Positions 18,876 through 29,216 of a stretch of DNA of 31,507 nt are shown here, one piece after another. Source of the DNA: a virus; IMG/VR virus record IMGVR_UViG_3300005514_000004, positions 1-31,507 of that record; one strand, given 5' to 3'. Position 1 is the stretch's first letter. Every line of letters starts with the position of its first letter. The position numbers and the translations under genes were made by a program. The notes beneath the pieces are model-generated. The model saw only the letters and a list, made by a program, of their open reading frames with translations. It had not been told where the DNA came from and ran no database searches.

Positions 18876-21800
18876 ATGCCCCAAGTAGTCAATCTATCAA
18901 GCCGGGGCATTTCGGTTAACTTCCCCGATGACGCAACGCCTGAAGAAATTCAGGAGGCACTGGATGAGTATTACCCCCGCAATGGTGCTGACGTTGCCCA
19001 CGACATTGCAACTGAGAGAAACTTTCACCTGAAAGGCATGACCCTAGATGACTATGAAATGCTTCGAGGCCACGAGGGTAAGATTGCTGAAGGGAAAGGG
19101 GCTTTGGAAAAAACAATGGAAGCGGCAGGTATGCTTGCCGAGGATATAGGCAGCGGATTGAAGGCAGCTTACCGGGCTGCCAAGAAGGGGCAGTACGGCC
19201 CAACCCTTTCAGGGTCGCTTAATCTAGGGCGTGATATTGCAGTGGGTGGCCTTACTGGCACCTACGATCTTGGTGAAGTTATTCATGGCATTTTTGAGGT
19301 TGAAGATGCAGAGGACACATACAACCGCCACCTTAGTGAAAATGATTTAAAGGATACCCCGGAAGCCCGGAAGGATTACAGGAGCAGGCTTGCAAATGAC
19401 TTCAAGGACTTTAAGAAAAAGATGGATCGTGCCGACTTCAGGCAGGGCATCATTGACCTTGCTGTTGTTCCTGAAGTAGCCCATGCCGCATCTTACGGGC
19501 TTGATGCGTCAGTGCCTGCGACTTTCGGGCTGGGTGCGCTTGCAAAGGCACCCGCGATGGCAGCGACAAAGACTGCTGGCCGTACTGTCGGTCAGGTTGT
19601 TGGGGGTGGATTTAGGCAAGCGGGGAGGGCTGCCACGGTTGTTGGTGAGGTTCCTGAGAGGGTTGCAGGCAAATTACTTGGTGAGGGTGCTGAAGCCGCA
19701 ACTAGGGGTGTTACCACTTTAGGTGGTGGACTTGGCGTTGCCACCGGCACAGTTATCCCTGCGGCTCCTGCGGCAGCAAAGGCGGCAGGGGCTATCCTTG
19801 ACGTTGCTGGAGATGTCCTTGAGTCTGCATCCAGAGCGGCAGCGGAGGGTGGTCGTAAGGGTACTTTTGCCAGAAGCGCAGAACTGGCTGAAACCACTGC
19901 TGGAAAGAACATCTCAGAGCTTCTTGCTCGCGTGGAAACGCCCCTCTCATACGCCGGGGAGGCTATTAAGGGTGCAGGTGCCGGGATGGCCATCGGAGGC
20001 ACGCTAGGCGGCCTTGCAGAGGGCGAAGAGGGCTTCTGGCACGGCATAGGTATAGGAGGCCCGTTAGGCATTGGCGGCAGCCTCGTCGGTCGCGCAGTGG
20101 GTGATGCGTTTGGAGTCAGGCGTGCAGCCCTCTCCTATGAAGACGCTAAGAAATACCTATCAAGTCATCGCGATGCACATTATGCGATCAAGGCTCTGGA
20201 CAAACTTTCCCCGGCTGATGCGGCACACCTAGCCGATTCGGTAATGCACATGGAAAAGTTGGGTGTGAAGGTTACGTTCCACGATGACAACGTGCCGCCG
20301 CCTGCGCTTTCACCTGAGAAGGTTGCGCGTAAATCTTATTCGGGTGTGATGGTGGATGAGTCAGGTGTGTTCATCAATACTGACAGGGTTACAGAATCCA
20401 CAGGACTGCACGAAGCCTTTCATGCGACAGCTTACGCGATGGAGCGAGGAAAGTTTCTTGGTGAAGTGCAGGGGATGCTACTTGGTAAGACTGACCCGGT
20501 GGAGGGTTTGATCGTCAGGCCGGGTGCCTTGTCGATGGAGAATTTTGCAAAGTTTGTTGAGTCCTATGCGGGGATGATGGAAAGTTCAGCAGCCCGTTTG
20601 CGTGTTGCCGGTGATGAGATTGGGGCGGCCAAGCTGGAGGTTCAGTCGATGGAGTTTCGGAGGAAGGTTGCCGAGGGCGACCTACAACATGCGGTGGATG
20701 AGTTTGGTGCATTCTACTGGGATGCATTTGTTCGTGGGGAAGAACCAAAGTTGTTTATTGGCGGCGAGAAAGACCTTGTAGTTAACGCATTAAACTGGGC
20801 GAAGAAAAAGGCTTCAAAGGCTTTTATGCGTGACGCTCAAAAGGCTGGTCTGGACTTCAGTCAAGGAACGCAGGCCGCATTCATTAGAGGCAAGCAGAGA
20901 CAGTTTGCCATCCCAGAGTTTGACGCTGCCATCAGGAGGCTTGTTAAGAATGGCGACATGGAGGTGACGCACAGTGTGCCTGTCACTGGCATACCGAAGG
21001 CACAGGCATTCGCTCTGGCGAAGCTGCATGGTGCTGAACATTTGTTTGAGGTAAGCGATAAGGGTGAGCCTGTAAGGGTGAAGACAATCAAGGAGATTGA
21101 AACTGAATCAAAGGCCGATGTGGAGGCTGCCTTGGATGCAATCGAGGTGCTGCCTGATAATGTGAGGCGGTCAGAGATTGTTGTTGATGAAAAGGGAAGG
21201 CGCAAACTTGTTGCCCGTAACTTATCGAATGAAGAGAAGGCGGTGTTGCTGCGTACAGTACGGCACATGAACAATAGTCAGCGGCAACAGCTTGAGGCTT
21301 TTGTTGCAGGCATGGATTCACCGGACGGCAAGCCGGTCTATAAGGTGAGTTACTGGAAGGCTTCAGGGGCAGGCCGTGGAAAGCGGAAGCCTTACGGTCA
21401 GTTTGAGGTAAGCGAAAGGGACGCACTACCCTACTCTCTGGAGATGAATGCAACCGGAGGGCTTTACCTTCGATTCGTGGACATGGATTCGGTTAATAGT
21501 AACCTGTTAAAGGCACGCAGGCTGAAGGTTTATAAGAACCTGCATTCCAGCCACCGGGAAGCTGTTGCAGAGTTTCATAGTTACCTTGAGAATCTTGACT
21601 CTGACAGTCCGATACCTAGCGCAGAGTTCTTCGGGGGTGGAGAGGTTGGGCGACTCAAGCGCAATTTATTTTATGAGGCACTGGGTACTGTTCCAAGAAA
21701 AGATGATCCACCCCTGCACAACATGGGAAGGGAAGGGTACACGCCAAAGCGTGGGCGAAACTTTGCATTCAAAAACTTCAGGGTAGAACGTCTGGGCAAT

Positions 21801-24800
21801 GTTGAGGACACAGGGGTACGGGTTAAGTTTGGTGAGAGTGCATACGAACGTAGCATAGTCAATATGCTGCCTGACGAATCACCGGCACGCTTCATGCCTG
21901 ATGTGGAGGGTGGAGGGAGAATGGATGCGCCAGAACTTAAAGGCCCAGCTAAGAAGAGGGTAGGAACAACAGGCCAGTACGTTGGCGCACCACGAGGCAT
22001 GTCCACCCCTCAGTCACTGGGTGCGCTTCGTAAGCGAATAGACATGCTTACTGTTGAAGGTCAGCCCGGTAGGTTCTGGTATGAAAATAGTAGTGACGCA
22101 ATTTTAGAGGCTACTGGTGGCAATCTCAAAGAGGCTGAAATAGTTGCCGCCTTGGTGGCTGTCTATTCCCCAGCTAACAGGGTCTACCCTAATTTCTCTC
22201 AGGCAATAAAGGCATACCAGCAGCACATCTCAGGTAAGCCTATCAAGGCAGGACGCTTTGGCCGTATTGATCGGGAAGCTGCCCGTGTCTTGAATGGTGA
22301 AAGGTGGCAGGGTGTAAAGACCAACAACTTCTATGTTAACCTTATGAGGAACGTAGACCCGTCACTTAAACAGGGCGTGACTGTCGATATGTGGATCATG
22401 CGCCTGTTCGGTTACGACACTGACTCACCCTCTACACAACAGTATGCATTTGCTGAAAAGGAAATTAAACGAATAGCCAAGAAGCTGGGATGGGAAGCAC
22501 AGCAGGTTCAGGCGGCAATGTGGGTGAGCGGTAAAGCTAGGTGGGAGTCGGTTTGGGGTGATGTAAAGAAGTCTGCAATAAAGAAGAAGGATTTATTCCA
22601 GAACGAAGAAACTGATAAGTGGGAATGGAAATCCAAGGCTGTTGAAAAGAAGTATCGCAAGAAGGCACGGGTAAAAATGTTTGCGATAAAGAATCAGGAC
22701 GTATCAAAGTCCAAGTTTGATTTTTCTGATGCAGCAAGGCGTGACCTCGGACAGTTAAGTCTGGAGAGTAGGCCCGGTGACAGTGCTGGAATAATACCGG
22801 GCATAGCTCGCGCTTCATACATCGAACAGATTGAATATCATGCTGCAATGGAACGCGCACTGACTGACCACACTGGTCGTGACGTTCTATCTACCGAGCT
22901 AGGCTTGATGGAGATTATGGCTGTAAACGCTCCGGGCGTTTGGCTTGATCAGGTTAACCCCAGCAAGCAGACTTCGTTTATTGCTCCAAAGCAGGGCAAG
23001 GAGGTTCATCCTGCACTCAGGGAGACGCTAAACGAATGGGCTGCATTTCAGGGTCTTCTCAGGAGGCAGGAGGCAGTCGGTTGGCATAGACCGTTTTACA
23101 CTGATTTTGCCGAGGCAAAGGTTGGCGAGGCTAACGGGATGCAGCTTGATTTCGGACGGACGCTGACACCAGAGGAGACTCGCGCCTTAAGCGAGGCAAT
23201 GTTGCAGCTTACGGGCGGGGATACGTTTGCGGCCATAGCTCATAAGGATGGAATTAGGTTCTTGAACTTTGCGGAAGACAATGTAGCTTTCCACAGGCAG
23301 GTGCGTGCAGCGACTGATACTGTCTTTGCGATGCGTCCTGAAGTTGAGGCTACGGGCCGTAGATTTTTTGCAGATAGCGATTTAATAAGTAATAACTGGA
23401 AGGAAAATCCACATGGCGACATTTATAGACAAAGGCTTTTGCGAAGCAGACGATCCGATCTTTACAGAAGGCATTACCGGCTTCTCGCTCCGAAGATCGA
23501 CCAAGTCAACGCAAGTTTCTCAGAAAAGTACGGATGGGGTGAACCCGGAAGACATCTCTCAGACCTCGACCCCGCCAGTACAGCCCCCTCAAAACCAGTA
23601 GACACTTCTACCCGCTTCATGCCTGACGTAGGCGGCCAAGATGCACTGGGTATGTTCAGTGCAGCAGAGCGTGCCACTGTTGATTTGAAGCAGGAGAAGG
23701 GTGGTGCCTCGCAGATGCTTGCCATGATCAAGAAGGCTGGTGTTAAGGATGAGGAGTTGAAGGCACTCGGTCTGGACAAATTCCTTGAGGGCAATCGTAA
23801 GGTGACCAAGGACGAGATTATCGATCACCTCGTGGAGAATCAGATTACTGTTGAGGAGACGGTGTTGGGTGAGGTTCTTCCACCTCTGGAGAGACTCCCT
23901 AGTGAATACGAAACAGGCTCGCGTGAGCGTGTTATCCGCAAGCATGAGTATGCTAAAGAGTTAAAAGCCAAATACGATCAAGTTTTAGACAGGCTAACGA
24001 AAGCGCATGATAAGTTGTCGCCTAACGAGCAAAAGCAAGTTGAGGTGTGGGACAAGAGTTTTAACGATTGGGTGGATTACTGGGGGCAACCTCGTATCCA
24101 GAACGAGCCTAGCGGCAGTCATACAGACGTTATGAAGTGGGCTAATGAGGTTCTGCCGGGGGCGTTTAATGAATCACTGTTCCGCCCTGACGTAGTGAAG
24201 GAATGGATCGTTTTTGAGGGCGGCGATAGGCGAAAAGTCAAAGGTCGTGGACGTTCAAAGAACGAAGCCGAATCTGATGCGCTTCAGAACATTAATGATT
24301 TAAGGAGTCGCCCTGATGCAGCCACCAAACACGACTCCTACGTCGAACCCGGCGCAGTCGAGGGCAGCTACCGGGAGTTGTTGCTGCGGTTGCCGGAGAA
24401 GGCAGCGAAGGCTCGCGTAATCCAAGCCGAAGACGGTCTTTTCTACATCCAGCATTCCCCGCATGAACGGTCAGAGGTCGCTCACGCCTCTCGTCAGTCG
24501 GCAGAAAGTGTTCTGGCAAAGTCACCGCCGAGCATGGAACCGCCGTCAGAAACCTACAAGGGCGGCCACTACGGCGACACCCCGAACACCCTCGCCCATG
24601 TCCGGTTCAACGACCGCACATCTGAGCATGGTAAGACGCTATTCATCGAGGAGATTCAGAGCGATTGGCATCAGGAGGGTCGGAAGAAGGGGTATAAGAC
24701 GGACGTTGATCCTGCTATTTTAAAGAAAATAAACGACCTTAAAAAGGCCGAGGATAAGTTGGACTCTGAGATTCAGGCAAAAAGTGTTGCGGATGATGTG

Positions 24801-26180
24801 CCGCAGCACATTATTGATGCCGGTGAAAGTGCTGATGGTTTGAATAGTCTGGTGGAATTCATAGCGGAATCAAACCGGAATGACCCTCGTTATCAAAAGA
24901 GAGAAGCTATCATGGCTGAAAGGATGTCTTTAGAAAGTCAAGTCGCCCAGCGCGACACCGTCCCAGACGCCCCCTTCAAGACCAGTTGGCACGAGTTGTC
25001 GATGAAGCGCATGATCAGTTACGCTGCCAAGCATGGTTACGATGCTATCAGTTGGACGAAGGGTGAGACACAGTTTCAGCGGTACGGTTCCTCAGAGATT
25101 GCATGGGTGAAGGACGGTGACGGTTGGAAGGTCAAGGCTACTGAGCAACGAGGTGGCGAGGCAGACGGCATTAACATTGAGACTGCTGCCCGTGCAGAAG
25201 GTATACTCAAGGAAGGCGGCGACACGATCACTAGCAAGGAACAGTTACACGCCTTAATCAAGGAGACGGTAATGGATCGTGAGCGAGGGCAATGGTCACC
25301 GGAGAATTTCGAGAAGCAGGTTGATAAGTTAACCAGCCGCACTTGGGAGAGAATGCAAAACGAGGATGCCGGGACATCGCTACCGCGCAAGGAAGGCATG
25401 GGAGGTTTCTACGACCGTATGCTGCCCAAGATGAAGACGTGGAAGAAGCTGGGGCTAAAGGTGGAGACGGATGACCTCGGTAAGCTGACCCCCGAACAGA
25501 GGGAGTTCGCTGAGATTGATAAGCTAGGAAAATACGATAACGCCGATCATCCGCTAACTGATAGGTATTGGGAGTTACATGATTTGCTTGGCCGGGAAGA
25601 GGCGTTGCAAGCAGTTGATCCGAAATCCCTTCCCGCCCACCTCGTCAAGCTCACCCCGGAGGTTAAGGCGAAGGTGCTGGACACCGGCATTGCACGATTC
25701 ATGCCTGATGCCGCAGTACCGGGTGCCGAGCGTAACAGCATAGGCTGGTCGATGCTTATGAGTAAGGCTGGTAACTGGAGGGTGTACAGCCCGGACGGTG
25801 TACTGGCTGGGGTTGCAGGCAGCAAGCAACGTGCTGAACAAATCTTTAAGACCAAGTACAAGCGGGAGTTGCGGAAGAAGGAGAGGAGCAGTAGCGTTAG
25901 GTACATGCCAGATGCAACAGAATACAGGGTTACGTTACCTGATGGAGGAACAAAAACAATTTCATCAAAAAGAACCGTCACTCATGTGGGGCTGATGAAG
26001 CGTGGGGGTGAGTGGGGTGTCCACAGTATGCATTCTCGTCGAGAGTTAGCGGAACGTAGTATAGATTCCGAGACAAAGAGGATTAACGATCATTACCGGC
26101 TGGAAGAGAAGCACGGAAGGTCAACCGCTGGCAATAGGGTTGATGAGACTAGGGTGGTTGAAGTGGAGAAGGTCAAATGA
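18876..26180 (+). CDS. Giant polyvalent virion protein with metallopeptidase-like domain (2434 aa)
   Basis: At 7.3 kb this is almost a quarter of the window and is one intact frame. It was probably built for ejection into the host. The N-terminus (FPDDATPEEIQEALDEYYP, about 15-33) is a short motif common at the start of phage ejection proteins. A Gly/Ala-rich region (about 200-410) has glycine-zipper membrane-insertion character. HEAFH at 512-516 is a zinc-metallopeptidase HExxH signature. About 1043-1226 resembles a helical domain of phage polyvalent proteins that I compare with HhH DNA glycosylases (VYSPANRVYPNF, VDMWIMRLFGYD). About 1594-1661 holds the LKQEKGGASQML domain, and about 1895-2110 the LAHVRFNDR / EEIQSDWHQ / VPDAPFK domain. 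RFMPD-type motifs at 1005, 1580, 2274 and 2342 mark boundaries. Domain activities are inferred. Confidence 0.75.
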   Translation: MPQVVNLSSRGISVNFPDDATPEEIQEALDEYYPRNGADVAHDIATERNFHLKGMTLDDYEMLRGHEGKIAEGKGALEKTMEAAGMLAEDIGSGLKAAYRAAKKGQYGPTLSGSLNLGRDIAVGGLTGTYDLGEVIHGIFEVEDAEDTYNRHLSENDLKDTPEARKDYRSRLANDFKDFKKKMDRADFRQGIIDLAVVPEVAHAASYGLDASVPATFGLGALAKAPAMAATKTAGRTVGQVVGGGFRQAGRAATVVGEVPERVAGKLLGEGAEAATRGVTTLGGGLGVATGTVIPAAPAAAKAAGAILDVAGDVLESASRAAAEGGRKGTFARSAELAETTAGKNISELLARVETPLSYAGEAIKGAGAGMAIGGTLGGLAEGEEGFWHGIGIGGPLGIGGSLVGRAVGDAFGVRRAALSYEDAKKYLSSHRDAHYAIKALDKLSPADAAHLADSVMHMEKLGVKVTFHDDNVPPPALSPEKVARKSYSGVMVDESGVFINTDRVTESTGLHEAFHATAYAMERGKFLGEVQGMLLGKTDPVEGLIVRPGALSMENFAKFVESYAGMMESSAARLRVAGDEIGAAKLEVQSMEFRRKVAEGDLQHAVDEFGAFYWDAFVRGEEPKLFIGGEKDLVVNALNWAKKKASKAFMRDAQKAGLDFSQGTQAAFIRGKQRQFAIPEFDAAIRRLVKNGDMEVTHSVPVTGIPKAQAFALAKLHGAEHLFEVSDKGEPVRVKTIKEIETESKADVEAALDAIEVLPDNVRRSEIVVDEKGRRKLVARNLSNEEKAVLLRTVRHMNNSQRQQLEAFVAGMDSPDGKPVYKVSYWKASGAGRGKRKPYGQFEVSERDALPYSLEMNATGGLYLRFVDMDSVNSNLLKARRLKVYKNLHSSHREAVAEFHSYLENLDSDSPIPSAEFFGGGEVGRLKRNLFYEALGTVPRKDDPPLHNMGREGYTPKRGRNFAFKNFRVERLGNVEDTGVRVKFGESAYERSIVNMLPDESPARFMPDVEGGGRMDAPELKGPAKKRVGTTGQYVGAPRGMSTPQSLGALRKRIDMLTVEGQPGRFWYENSSDAILEATGGNLKEAEIVAALVAVYSPANRVYPNFSQAIKAYQQHISGKPIKAGRFGRIDREAARVLNGERWQGVKTNNFYVNLMRNVDPSLKQGVTVDMWIMRLFGYDTDSPSTQQYAFAEKEIKRIAKKLGWEAQQVQAAMWVSGKARWESVWGDVKKSAIKKKDLFQNEETDKWEWKSKAVEKKYRKKARVKMFAIKNQDVSKSKFDFSDAARRDLGQLSLESRPGDSAGIIPGIARASYIEQIEYHAAMERALTDHTGRDVLSTELGLMEIMAVNAPGVWLDQVNPSKQTSFIAPKQGKEVHPALRETLNEWAAFQGLLRRQEAVGWHRPFYTDFAEAKVGEANGMQLDFGRTLTPEETRALSEAMLQLTGGDTFAAIAHKDGIRFLNFAEDNVAFHRQVRAATDTVFAMRPEVEATGRRFFADSDLISNNWKENPHGDIYRQRLLRSRRSDLYRRHYRLLAPKIDQVNASFSEKYGWGEPGRHLSDLDPASTAPSKPVDTSTRFMPDVGGQDALGMFSAAERATVDLKQEKGGASQMLAMIKKAGVKDEELKALGLDKFLEGNRKVTKDEIIDHLVENQITVEETVLGEVLPPLERLPSEYETGSRERVIRKHEYAKELKAKYDQVLDRLTKAHDKLSPNEQKQVEVWDKSFNDWVDYWGQPRIQNEPSGSHTDVMKWANEVLPGAFNESLFRPDVVKEWIVFEGGDRRKVKGRGRSKNEAESDALQNINDLRSRPDAATKHDSYVEPGAVEGSYRELLLRLPEKAAKARVIQAEDGLFYIQHSPHERSEVAHASRQSAESVLAKSPPSMEPPSETYKGGHYGDTPNTLAHVRFNDRTSEHGKTLFIEEIQSDWHQEGRKKGYKTDVDPAILKKINDLKKAEDKLDSEIQAKSVADDVPQHIIDAGESADGLNSLVEFIAESNRNDPRYQKREAIMAERMSLESQVAQRDTVPDAPFKTSWHELSMKRMISYAAKHGYDAISWTKGETQFQRYGSSEIAWVKDGDGWKVKATEQRGGEADGINIETAARAEGILKEGGDTITSKEQLHALIKETVMDRERGQWSPENFEKQVDKLTSRTWERMQNEDAGTSLPRKEGMGGFYDRMLPKMKTWKKLGLKVETDDLGKLTPEQREFAEIDKLGKYDNADHPLTDRYWELHDLLGREEALQAVDPKSLPAHLVKLTPEVKAKVLDTGIARFMPDAAVPGAERNSIGWSMLMSKAGNWRVYSPDGVLAGVAGSKQRAEQIFKTKYKRELRKKERSSSVRYMPDATEYRVTLPDGGTKTISSKRTVTHVGLMKRGGEWGVHSMHSRRELAERSIDSETKRINDHYRLEEKHGRSTAGNRVDETRVVEVEKVK
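21888..25913 (+). repeat. Four dispersed RFMPD/RYMPD coding motifs
   Basis: The pentapeptide R-(F/Y)-M-P-D is encoded at 21888, 23613, 25695 and 25899 (residues 1005, 1580, 2274 and 2342). All four lie in low-complexity linkers, after short Ser/Thr/Ala/Pro segments and before a new domain. Codons vary (CGC, CGC, CGA, AGG for Arg; TTC or TAC second), so conservation is at the protein level rather than by recent DNA copying. Confidence 0.8.
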
Positions 26181-26187
26181 ATTTCGG

Positions 26188-26592
26188 GTGGTGGCAATTA
26201 CGAAGTACAAACAGCAGGGTAACTGTCATGAACTGGCTGTAGCTCTGAAGGTAGCTGAATTGGGTGGGACAGTCTTATGGCCATACGGCGATGGGCAGGC
26301 TTACGATTTGGTCGCAGACTTCAATGGTAAGATCAGTCGGATTCAGGTTAAGGGTACATGCCAGATCGCTAAGAATGGATCGACTAAAGTTAACCTCCAG
26401 AAGGGTAGCCGTAAGCACTCCCCGTACAACCTCCGAGACTGCGACCTTGTTGTGGCTGTAACCCCGCTGGGCAATTTCGTCATCCCGATAAGCGCATTAG
26501 GCACTTACCGTCTGGTAGCTTGGCCGGTCGGCGTGAGGAAGAAGCCCCCATACTATGAACCTTATAAGGAGGCATGGCATTTACTAAAATGA
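26188..26592 (+). CDS. PD-(D/E)XK endonuclease-like protein
   Basis: The protein shows the nuclease core: Glu in NCHELAVALKVAELGG (E15), Asp in GQAYDLVAD (D40) and the QVK strand in RIQVKG (Q53-x-K55), counting from GTG 26188. This is the pattern of small PD-(D/E)XK endonuclease families related to archaeal Holliday-junction resolvases. The start is uncertain: GTG 26188 or 26191 gives about 134 residues, while ATG 26140 (150 residues) overlaps the giant gene by 41 bases. It could resolve branched DNA before packaging or act in recombination near the att site. The stop overlaps the next gene. Confidence 0.7.
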   Translation: MVAITKYKQQGNCHELAVALKVAELGGTVLWPYGDGQAYDLVADFNGKISRIQVKGTCQIAKNGSTKVNLQKGSRKHSPYNLRDCDLVVAVTPLGNFVIPISALGTYRLVAWPVGVRKKPPYYEPYKEAWHLLK

Positions 26593-26840
26593 AGAGGTTA
26601 CCACCAGTAGGAACTAGGGTGCGCTGCCTGTGGCAGGACATCGTTGGTTATATCAATCAGCCGCTGAAGGATGTTAAGATTGCTGACGTTTGGACGGAGG
26701 GAAAATTGGTAAAGGCCGACAAGGAATTTTTGGTAATAGCGACCTCACAATATATCGATGACGGGCCAGTTGATGAGACGCTAGGAGACTACACCGCCAT
26801 CCCGCGAGGGGCGGTAAAGTCGATCAAACCCCGGCGGTAA
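26574..26840 (+). CDS. Small hypothetical protein (88 aa)
   Basis: I do not recognise this protein. It starts at ATG 26574 behind a near-perfect Shine-Dalgarno (TAAGGAGGC), overlapping the nuclease gene by 19 bases. The sequence is basic and beta-rich (VGTRVRCLWQDIVGYI, WTEGKLVKADKEFLVIATS, PRGAVKSIKPRR), which would suit a small SH3- or OB-like barrel, possibly nucleic-acid binding. It is the last gene of the long rightward operon before the att-like segment; no U-run terminator follows it. Confidence 0.65.
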   Translation: MAFTKMKRLPPVGTRVRCLWQDIVGYINQPLKDVKIADVWTEGKLVKADKEFLVIATSQYIDDGPVDETLGDYTAIPRGAVKSIKPRR

Positions 26841-26861
26841 AAACGTACAAGAAACGTACAA
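26841..26861 (+). repeat. Left pair of AAACGTACAA repeats (candidate integrase arm sites)
   Basis: AAACGTACAA occurs at 26841-26850 and again at 26852-26861, an 11-base step that places both on the same helical face. A matching pair lies about 240 bases away on the other side of the tRNA-like core. This is the layout of arm-type sites bound by the N-terminal domain of tyrosine integrases. The first copy starts immediately after the stop of the preceding gene. Confidence 0.6.
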
Positions 26862-26870
26862 GTCAGTGCT

Positions 26871-26888
26871 TCTAATATGTCTAATATG
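26871..26888 (+). repeat. Tandem 9-bp repeat TCTAATATG
   Basis: TCTAATATG is repeated head to tail at 26871-26879 and 26880-26888, ten bases after the left arm repeats. Excisionase or host-factor sites often occupy this position in phage att regions, but there is no direct evidence for that here. Confidence 0.5.
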
Positions 26889-26917
26889 AGGTGTTTTTGA
26901 GGGTGAGTGATTTACAG

Positions 26918-26960
26918 TTTATGCCTGTGAATGAGGATGAATGACTGTGTGAGGCATAAA
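26918..26960. repeat. 9-bp inverted repeat TTTATGCCT / AGGCATAAA
   Basis: TTTATGCCT (26918-26926) pairs perfectly with AGGCATAAA (26952-26960) over a 25-base loop. It ends five bases before the anticodon-arm-like core. It may bind a protein in the recombination complex or form a hairpin that ends the structural operon transcript, although no U-tract follows. Confidence 0.55.
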
Positions 26961-26964
26961 TAAT

Positions 26965-26985
26965 GCGGACTGAAAATCCGTGTGT
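26965..26985. other. Candidate attP core matching a tRNA-Phe anticodon arm
   Basis: GCGGACTGAAAATCCGT folds as a 5-bp stem (GCGGA with UCCGU, one G-U pair) and a 7-base loop CTGAAAA with the Phe anticodon GAA in the right place; the next bases TGTGT also suit a tRNA-Phe 3' continuation. No D-arm, T-arm or acceptor stem is present, so it is not a tRNA. Phage tyrosine integrases very often recombine at tRNA anticodon arms. The integrase gene lies 1 kb to the right, and paired repeats flank the core at about 115-120 bases on each side. I infer integration into a host tRNA-Phe gene. Confidence 0.65.
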
Positions 26986-27079
26986 TAACGAGCCACACAA
27001 TATTCCTGACCTCGCTCATACCCTTGTATATCAGTGCTGATACGAGTTTCTGCATCAAACCCTACCCCTCGGAAATAGC
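26980..27079. other. Gene-free att region between core and right arm
   Basis: A short hairpin GTGTG/CACAC (26980-26984 with 26994-26998) directly follows the core. A palindrome TATCAG-TG-CTGATA lies at 27029-27042. No open frame with a ribosome site is present on either strand. The length and content fit the P' side of an attachment site. Confidence 0.4.
27029..27042. repeat. Palindrome TATCAGTGCTGATA
   Basis: Six-base arms TATCAG and CTGATA flank a TG centre. It lies in the non-coding att region, 44 bases past the core. It could be an operator or an accessory-protein site. Confidence 0.45.
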
Positions 27080-27100
27080 CACCTTACAAAAAACGTACAA
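27080..27100 (+). repeat. Right pair of arm-type repeats (one degenerate)
   Basis: AAACGTACAA is exact at 27091-27100. CACCTTACAA at 27080-27089 matches it at 7 of 10 positions and lies exactly 11 bases upstream, the same step as the left pair. The mirrored placement around the tRNA-like core supports the attP reading. Confidence 0.5.
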
Positions 27101-27127
27101 ATAATGCTTGGCAGGAGTGGCCGTACA

Positions 27128-27157
27128 GGTGTAAAACACCAATGTCCCACGGGACAT
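27128..27157. promoter_or_regulatory. Operator-like palindromes upstream of the integrase operon
   Basis: Two palindromes stand next to each other: GGTGT-AAA-ACACC (27128-27140) and ATGTCCC-AC-GGGACAT (27142-27157, 7-bp perfect arms). They lie 26-55 bases before the first ATG of the operon that ends in the integrase gene. A repressor site is the likeliest reading. Without a U-run they are poor terminators. TGTCC-type arms recur upstream of the 30716 gene. Confidence 0.5.
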
Positions 27158-27169
27158 CTAAAAACAACT

Positions 27170-27180
27170 GGAGCTACTAA
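27170..27180 (+). promoter_or_regulatory. Translation-start box GGAGCTACTAA, copy 1
   Basis: GGAGCTACTAA lies just before the ATG at 27183. The identical 11-base box recurs before the next two genes. GGAG is the Shine-Dalgarno core; the shared downstream CTACTAA is not needed for ribosome binding. Confidence 0.7.
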
Positions 27181-27182
27181 AA

Positions 27183-27704
27183 ATGAAAAACGAAAACCTA
27201 CTGAACGAAACGAACAAGGTATCAATCCGCATCGCCTATGCCTATGACTCTAAAGCCCCCGCCCACTGGAGCCAAGGGGTAGTCGGACGCTACGATGTTT
27301 ATTCTGAGCACTACGGCAGTCCGCAAGAGATTTACAGGTGCGACAAAGTAAGTGCCGATCAGGCGTTGCTCAATGAGATTTGGGCCGGTTGGAATAACGG
27401 CAGTGGCGAAGAGTGTGACGCTTTTCGTGGAGCCAATGCCCGCTCGATGATGATCGGCGATTATGTTGAAATTACTTTTCGTGACCGTATTGATTATTAT
27501 CGGGTCGAAAGTACCGGATGGAGTCGCGTTAGCTGGCGGGATTTATGGGCCGAGGTAGACGCTTACGAAGCCAGCCATCAGTTTGCTGAACTTCAAGCGC
27601 ATCAATTGGAAAGCGATGGGGTTGAGCAAGAATCACTGAAGCAAGCCGAAAGCGCACGCGAGTTCTGGAGTTGCCTCGATGAAGAACCCGAAGACCGTTA
27701 TTAA
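27183..27704 (+). CDS. Hypothetical protein of the integrase operon (173 aa)
   Basis: I do not recognise a family. The protein is soluble and acidic, with aromatic-rich segments (YDSKAPAHWSQGVVGRYDVY, about residues 21-40; FRDRIDYYRVESTGWSRVSW, about 99-118) and a Glu/Gln-rich helical C-terminus (FAELQAHQLESDGVEQESL). No membrane segment or DNA-binding motif is visible. It is the first gene after the att region and its operator-like palindromes, and it shares its translation-start box with the next gene and the integrase. A role in the lysogeny module is suggested by place only. Confidence 0.65.
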   Translation: MKNENLLNETNKVSIRIAYAYDSKAPAHWSQGVVGRYDVYSEHYGSPQEIYRCDKVSADQALLNEIWAGWNNGSGEECDAFRGANARSMMIGDYVEITFRDRIDYYRVESTGWSRVSWRDLWAEVDAYEASHQFAELQAHQLESDGVEQESLKQAESAREFWSCLDEEPEDRY

Positions 27705-27719
27705 TCTAAAACAAAATCA

Positions 27720-27730
27720 GGAGCTACTAA
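27720..27730 (+). promoter_or_regulatory. Translation-start box GGAGCTACTAA, copy 2
   Basis: An exact copy of the box precedes the ATG at 27732 by one base (A). The sequence just upstream (ACAAAATCA) resembles that before copy 1 (AAAACAACT). Confidence 0.7.
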
Positions 27731-27731
27731 A

Positions 27732-27980
27732 ATGGAAACACTAAATTACCTTCACCGTAAGTTTGAGTGCATCACCACCCATTGCAATTGCAGCGAAGAG
27801 GCAGAGGAACGCATCTTTACCTGCCTAGCAATAGGTGATGGCCCAAAGGATGCATCTTACAAGAGACGGACTTATGTTGTTCGTGCAATCGATTCAGCCC
27901 ATGCGGATCGTATCGTGCGTAACCGGCTGTGGCCTTTTGGCTCTTGCCAAATATTCATCAACCTCGAACCAAAAAACTAG
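27732..27980 (+). CDS. Small cysteine-containing hypothetical protein (82 aa)
   Basis: I do not recognise this protein. The first third has Cys/His residues in a close cluster (FECITTHCNCSEE, about 12-24, with another Cys near 31), which could bind zinc, though the spacing does not match a standard finger. The remainder is a short mixed alpha/beta segment (RTYVVRAIDSAHADRIVRN; GSCQIFINLEP). The TAG stop overlaps the start box of the integrase gene by one base. It may be a regulator or integrase accessory factor; this is inference from context. Confidence 0.6.
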   Translation: METLNYLHRKFECITTHCNCSEEAEERIFTCLAIGDGPKDASYKRRTYVVRAIDSAHADRIVRNRLWPFGSCQIFINLEPKN

Positions 27981-27990: not shown

Positions 27991-29216
27991 TGAAGATCGA
28001 AAAATACATAGGCCGAAACGGCAAGCCGGTTGACAACAAGCGCAAGGTGTCTGCGAAGGACGGCACCACCGCAGTGATCGAACTGCGCCACAAGAACTGG
28101 ATCACCCGATTCCAGCTTGACGGTAAGCACCATCAACTCAACCTCCGCACCACGGATGAACGTACAGCAGCCGCTACCGCTCTGGACAAAGTCCGGGCAG
28201 CCAACCGCGACCAGTGGGAGGTCGTTCATGCCGGTCAAACGAAACGTGATGTGATTACGATTGGCAAGATCGTCGAACTGTTTACAGGCCAACCCGTTGC
28301 TTCCGCTGGCGAACGTCAGTTACAGGACGCGAGCAATCGACTCCGCAACCTGATCCGCACCGCATTCGGCCACGGCCCCAAGCATGATGTGGACAGCTAC
28401 CCTGCGACCATTCTCGATAAGGAGCTGGTTAAGAAGTTTTTCACCAAGAGGCTCAAGGGCTTCTCCAAGGGTGAGGCACGCGAGAGTCGCATCCGTGGAG
28501 CTAACAGCCTGCTGTCCGATGCCAAGAGCCTCTTCACCAAGGCCATCCTGTCCGACGACCTGTACCCCGGACTGCCTGACATCAGCACGTTTGTTGATGC
28601 GAATCATTTGAAGGCAACCCCGGTAAAGTTCCTGTACGAAAACATCGACGCACAGGTTGTCAGCTTAAAGGCTAACCTGCCTGCACTGAAGGAGTCGGAT
28701 GTATCGGCCTACCTGTTATTCCAACTGGCCGCAGGATGTGGCCTGCGTCTTACTGAAGCAACTCAGGCACGCAAGGAATGGATCACGACATTCAAGGGCA
28801 AGCGGGTGCTGTACGTTCAGCCTACTGACACTTGGATTCCGAAGGGTCGCAAGGTTCGCCGGGTGCCATTGCCAGAGGCCGTGTATCAGGAGATACTTTT
28901 GCTCAGTGACGACTCCGAGTTCATCATCCCCGCGATCAGTGATAATGATCGCAACTGGGCGATTGGCCGCAGACTCAGCAAGTGGTTTACCTCTGTTGGA
29001 TGGACTGCCAAGAAAAAGGCGCATGAACTTCGGAAATGGTTCGGAGCACAGGTAGCCACCCAGACCAAGAGCCTGTTCGCAGTGCAACGGATTCTGGGCC
29101 ACTCATCGGCAGCGACCACTGACCAGTATTATGCTGATCTGGTGAACCTACCTGACTACGATATTAACCTGACCGCCGATGAGCCTGTTAACAAACAGGT
29201 TGCGGTTGGGGAATAA
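27990..29216 (+). CDS. int: Tyrosine-type site-specific integrase
   Basis: This 408-residue protein should integrate and excise the phage genome. The catalytic set is complete: Arg253 (CGLRLTEA), a lysine in the KGRKVRRVPL hairpin, His345-x-x-Arg348 (AHELRKWFG), His371 (LGHSSAATT) and nucleophile Tyr380 (TTDQYYADL). The N-terminal part (about 1-60) is an AP2-like arm-binding region with beta strands (AVIELRHKNWITRFQL), and 85-200 is the helical core-binding domain. The length is normal for a full phage integrase. A GGAGCTACTAA start box precedes it. The flanking att-like segment and the excisionase-like gene at 30.1 kb complete a lysogeny module. No repressor gene is visible. Confidence 0.95.
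   Translation: MKIEKYIGRNGKPVDNKRKVSAKDGTTAVIELRHKNWITRFQLDGKHHQLNLRTTDERTAAATALDKVRAANRDQWEVVHAGQTKRDVITIGKIVELFTGQPVASAGERQLQDASNRLRNLIRTAFGHGPKHDVDSYPATILDKELVKKFFTKRLKGFSKGEARESRIRGANSLLSDAKSLFTKAILSDDLYPGLPDISTFVDANHLKATPVKFLYENIDAQVVSLKANLPALKESDVSAYLLFQLAAGCGLRLTEATQARKEWITTFKGKRVLYVQPTDTWIPKGRKVRRVPLPEAVYQEILLLSDDSEFIIPAISDNDRNWAIGRRLSKWFTSVGWTAKKKAHELRKWFGAQVATQTKSLFAVQRILGHSSAATTDQYYADLVNLPDYDINLTADEPVNKQVAVGE

Follow-up and report, generated by a model that had tools for sequence, protein, structure and literature searches.

A candidate tRNA-Phe attachment site of a podovirus-like phage with arm-type repeats that changed together with the integrase N-terminal domain

Genes and repeats of the attachment region

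The window, that is the whole stretch of 31,507 nucleotides analysed here, encodes a tyrosine integrase along with a major head protein, an SU10-type portal, a 2434-residue protein and a transglycosylase, the latter four identifying the phage as podovirus-like. The phage would be temperate and is probably marine. A contig colinear with the right end of the window, L004, extends about 15 kb further there, hence the 31.5-kb linear window represents only a part of the genome. Searches against annotated phages yielded no DNA match for the attP-int region and no protein match for the integrase, while the plasmid search returned only distant XerC and no integrase relatives were found in genome contigs. 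The coordinates of the features are collected in Table 1.

Table 1. Features of the attachment region and the integrase gene in the window.
Feature	Position	Strand	Remarks
Left arm-type site 1, AAACGTACAA	26841-26850	+	Exact copy; aligns to TTTTGGACAA in L002
Left arm-type site 2, AAACGTACAA, 11-bp step from site 1	26852-26861	+	Exact copy; aligns to TTTTGGACAA in L002
Spacer, left arms to core	26863-26952		1 difference in 90 bp versus L002
Putative attP core, matching positions 27-47 of tRNA-Phe (the anticodon arm with the greater part of the variable loop)	26965-26985	+	20-mer found in tRNA-Phe genes; in register with L002 tRNA-His arm
Right arm-type site 1, degenerate CACCTTACAA (7/10)	27080-27089	+	Aligns to a GGACAA copy in L002
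Right arm-type site 2, AAACGTACAA, 11 bp past the degenerate copy	27091-27100	+	Exact copy; aligns to TTTTGGACAA in L002
Tyrosine integrase, 408 aa	27990-29216	+	PF00589, E 1e-12; PHROG 1 and 216
Integrase codons 30-46, hypervariable patch, predicted arm reader	28077-28127	+	Residues 34, 38 and 42-44 change versus L002

Several neighboring genes deserve mention in their own right. Just upstream of attP resides a PD-(D/E)XK nuclease-family protein (26140-26592; PF11645, E 1.1e-13) with relatives upstream of attP also in L002 and L009; a scan with this protein recovered one extra record, L031, in which no integrase relative was found. The interval from the right arm to int, 27183-27980, is occupied by two short reading frames of 173 and 82 aa that lack a Pfam match; in L002 there is nothing of the kind, int coming directly after attP. 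The 2434-residue protein (18876-26180) includes four copies of R[FY]MPD (at residues 1005, 1580, 2274 and 2342), located at apparent joints between unlike segments, and two of the copies are kept in L002 though the adjacent segments differ; the motif may serve for cleavage or as a linker in a virion protein made of several domains.

A preliminary description of this DNA had proposed an attP with a tRNA-Phe anticodon arm as core, flanked by paired arm repeats. The pairs themselves were readily recovered, two exact copies of AAACGTACAA at an 11-bp step to the left, and to the right one exact and one 7/10 copy at the same step. Both pairs had been placed about 115-120 bp from the anticodon arm; measured from pair centre to core centre, the distance is about 115 bp for the right pair and about 124 bp for the left, with the nearest arm copies about 95 and 104 bp from the core, respectively. 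In dinucleotide-preserving shuffles of 26800-27180, three copies of an exact 10-mer appeared in 4 of 5000 cases, and only 1 of 5000 contained an exact 10-mer pair spaced by 11 bp. Moreover, if a GGC-type run near 10 kb is set aside, AAACGTACAA is the sole 10-mer of the window with three copies inside 300 bp. With two mismatches allowed there is no window-wide enrichment (27 found versus 24.5 expected), and the signal of AAACGTACAA is thus one of tight exact clustering only. We also tried the arm-pair pattern AACGTACAANNAACGTACAA as support and rejected it: seven other viral stretches matched, with a phage integrase in two records only, neither evidently related.

The integrase has few relatives, those of L002/L004 being 73% identical over the aligned protein and those of L003 and L009 51%. 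These records supply three distinct related attP sites (L002/L004, L003 and L009) with the same layout as the window, each with a tRNA-His core that stretches from the anticodon stem through the terminal CCA. L002 displays two arm copies per side at step 11; in L003 and L009 a single copy can be recognised to the left and two to the right, the latter again at step 11. Since the layout is shared by three related attP sites, the window feature can be assigned as an attP with arm-type sites. The sequence of the arms is phage-specific rather than common to near relatives, a point missed in the preliminary description. The window tRNA-Phe anticodon arm aligns free of gaps to the tRNA-His anticodon arm of L002, which we consider the best sequence evidence for the attP identity and for a crossover at or close to the anticodon loop. 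Regulators, too, often have tandem 11-bp repeats close to a gene start, and the repeats might accordingly be operators, of Xis or a repressor for instance, rather than integrase arm sites; however, they bracket the core in the window as well as in L002, L003 and L009, and they co-vary with the integrase N-domain (below), rendering an operator role improbable.

The short core and the tRNA-Phe gene

The core, GCGGACTGAAAATCCGTGTGT, comprises a five-pair stem (GCGGA with TCCGT) enclosing the seven-base loop CTGAAAA with anticodon GAA, and continues into a tRNA-Phe-type variable loop, GTGT. The anticodon arm had been termed perfect, which is slightly generous considering that the outermost stem pair is G-U. 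The sequence GGAYTGAAAATCC occurs a single time in the window.

The first 20 core bases are present in 11 other IMG/VR viral stretches, in nine of them inside a complete tRNA-Phe gene. In the remaining two, L015 and L017, the tRNA-Phe gene is reduced to its 3' half, which starts exactly where the window core does, and in L015 this half is placed after the end of an integrase gene; both resemble att sites through which other elements target tRNA-Phe at an identical point. As all 11 viral matches are tRNA-Phe genes or such half-gene att sites, sequence comparison identifies the core as derived from tRNA-Phe, with CTGAAAA (26970-26976) as the probable overlap. Judging from L015:1600-2412 (minus strand) and L017:7123-7180, att sites seem to be bounded repeatedly at tRNA-Phe position 27.

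Longer or wider searches were negative. No other viral contig contained the 22-mer that ends in GTT, plasmids and phages searched by BLAST with the core region yielded no tRNA-Phe at that sensitivity, and two scans of genome contigs, both empty, revealed no host tRNA-Phe, attB, attL or attR. The lack of a host attB in these scans would be in agreement with integration at some other host site with a chance anticodon-arm-like inverted repeat, and inverted core repeats around a 7-bp overlap resemble an anticodon arm anyway. Nevertheless, in viral contigs the first 20 bases are confined to tRNA-Phe genes and half-genes, and the core matches the tRNA-His arm of L002 position for position in the alignment, so that we regard a target outside tRNA-Phe as very improbable.

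An attP with a tRNA-Phe anticodon-arm core and paired arm sites thus finds support in the three related attP sites and in the tRNA-Phe genes from which the 20-mer derives, but the preliminary description overlooked that the tRNA 3' half is missing from the core. With this half missing, ordinary reconstituting integration into a tRNA gene does not fit. We simulated attL by joining a tRNA 5' half to the phage core and scoring the product with ARAGORN, the tRNA-His 5' half having been designed to match the acceptor strand of the phage. Accepted tRNA genes were obtained with the tRNA-Phe 5' half and the L015 or L017 core, and with the tRNA-His 5' half and the L002, L003 or L009 core. The tRNA-Phe 5' half joined to the window core gave no tRNA; the 21-bp block is without T arm and too short to rebuild one, and the window consequently lacks the defining feature of reconstituting tRNA integration.

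Integration should instead break the tRNA-Phe gene, and with that gene broken the lysogen should need another tRNA-Phe. A short core within a tRNA gene is what tRNA-dependent lysogeny entails, and the window core has this property for a predicted host tRNA-Phe target. No tRNA gene was detected in the 31.5-kb window, Rfam included, the record being a linear fragment, and tRNA-dependent lysogeny would predict a phage tRNA-Phe gene outside it. A short core and no phage tRNA in the window would also fit a host with more than one tRNA-Phe gene, where one copy is broken without any rescue tRNA, but the close relatives retain a core that rebuilds tRNA-His, and we view such host redundancy as rather unlikely.

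Concerted change of arms and integrase N-domain

Over many flanking stretches the window is 91-97% identical to L002/L004, whereas all four arm copies differ from those of L002. The arm blocks accumulate 22 differences in 49 bp, compared to 33 in 447 bp for other non-core DNA (Fisher p ~9e-11). The pair L003 and L009 shows a related pattern at three matching places, with GAGCAA twice and GTGCAA once in the former versus GGACAA twice and GGTCAA once in the latter; 6 of the 24 differences between them fall in the 18 bp of arms (p ~5e-4), in sequence terms a second, independent arm switch.

As a separate observation, a TTGTC/TTGCC difference is located upstream of the right arms, around 870-880 of L009 and at the matching place of L003. 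It could represent an inverted arm-like site (reverse complement GACAA/GGCAA) that changes in the same way as the direct arms.

Within the integrase, codons 30-46 display a pN of 0.24 and 0.26 in the two phage pairs (window/L002 and L003/L009), versus 0.015-0.06 in the rest of the N-domain, and residues 34, 38, 42 and 44 are altered in both. For L009/L003 the maximum along the entire gene falls on these codons (0 of 5000 permutations). For window/L002, on the other hand, permutations fail to single them out gene-wide and are marginal inside the N-domain (1170 of 20000), because the C-terminal part has diverged throughout, with 73% DNA identity versus 97% downstream. This divergence is consistent with a swapped core-recognition part that would suit the changed core. 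Synonymous divergence is also higher in codons 30-46, and import of a short segment is therefore as possible as repeated selection. Arg38 combined with GGACAA is common to L002 and L009, the integrases of which are distant, while the window has Ile38 with CGTACAA and L003 Glu38 with GAGCAA; resting on four integrases, the Arg38-GGACAA rule is to be taken as a lead only.

Modelled at full length, the integrase scored poorly (pLDDT 51), and we therefore used a model of the N-domain alone (pLDDT 88.6), which contains strands at 27-33, 36-43 and 46-51 and a helix from 57. Foldseek returned no significant fold match for this model, while VIA-align placed the arm-type domains 3rmp, 3jtz and 3ju0 in the top 12, with modest Z-scores of 4.3-5.2, modestly pointing to the expected arm-type fold. 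From these comparisons the integrase N-domain is predicted to bind the arm repeats, and at the sequence level the arm repeats and a few integrase residues have changed together relative to close relatives.

The concerted change also bears on whether the attP is still in use. The failing simulated attL, the fragment without tRNA gene and the degenerate first right arm would be in line with a relic, in which the tRNA-Phe 3' half was once present and then lost, such that stable tRNA-Phe lysogens are no longer made. However, only one of the four arms deviates, the reading frame of the integrase is uninterrupted, and the joint change of arms and N-domain patch suggests recent function, and loss of function thus seems unlikely to us.

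Proposed integration and comparison with known systems

We favor, with a probability of roughly 85%, that 26841-27100 is an attP whose arms are read by the integrase N-domain, that arms and N-domain changed together, and that integration breaks tRNA-Phe such that another tRNA-Phe is needed. The N-terminal domain would sit on the arm repeats and the C-terminal part on the core, with strand exchange in or adjoining the anticodon loop of the host tRNA-Phe gene, probably over CTGAAAA. The arm repeats and the recognition strand of the N-domain would have changed together in an attP scaffold otherwise nearly identical to that of close relatives, and the broken tRNA-Phe would be covered by a phage-borne gene beyond the record or by a second host copy. 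The protein-DNA binding, the crossover position, the host and the rescue by another tRNA we infer.

Far more tentatively, the data may disclose a natural arm-recognition code, where residues 34, 38 and 42-44 and the dispersed arms are rewritten together (Arg38 for GGACAA), coupled to a shift, outside the actinophages, from rebuilding tRNA-His to a tRNA-dependent lysogeny that breaks tRNA-Phe. The two pairs of close relatives would then be cases in which a presumably heterobivalent integrase had its specificity swapped by nature in an unchanged scaffold. Such a code is directly testable and would help retargeting of integrases as tools, and a core as short as this one, in tRNA-Phe, provides a concrete candidate for tRNA-dependent lysogeny in phages other than actinophages.

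The proposed arrangement resembles lambda attP and Int, where a heterobivalent integrase engages arm-type and core-type sites (PMC4880445), the binding being a prediction here. Unlike in lambda, the window core lies in a tRNA gene, the arms are regular tandem pairs, and no convincing IHF consensus was found in the attP spacers. The arm-type domains retrieved by VIA-align belong to P4-like integrases and may be similar in fold to the window N-domain, which is without Pfam arm-domain match and only about 10-12% identical.

In tRNA-dependent lysogeny, as described for Fionnbharth, LeBron and Gaia, a short core lies in a tRNA gene that it cannot rebuild, and the loss is made good by a tRNA of the phage (PMC10865867). 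Boilgate and Fionnbharth have cores of 43 and 10 bp and integrases that are 78% identical (PMC10865867), and L002 and the window offer a parallel, with related integrases and a longer core that rebuilds the tRNA in the former. The window differs from these phages in being a fragment without phage tRNA and in not being an actinophage, and tRNA-Phe is not among the targets in Table 2 of PMC10865867. A relic attP would liken the window to Rumpelstiltskin or Daredevil (PMC10865867).

Finally, 11-bp arm-type repeat pairs flank the core in the cluster K1 mycobacteriophages CrimD, Anaya and Adephagia, and between close relatives the arm consensus covaries with N-terminal integrase residues (PMC3203893). 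There the change affects consensus position 7 along with residues 17 and 19, one of the pairs being in inverted orientation (PMC3203893), whereas in the window about 5 of 10 positions change per site, all repeats are in direct orientation and the patch comprises residues 34-44. The case described here is a larger, repeated version of K1-type covariation, in a different phage group.
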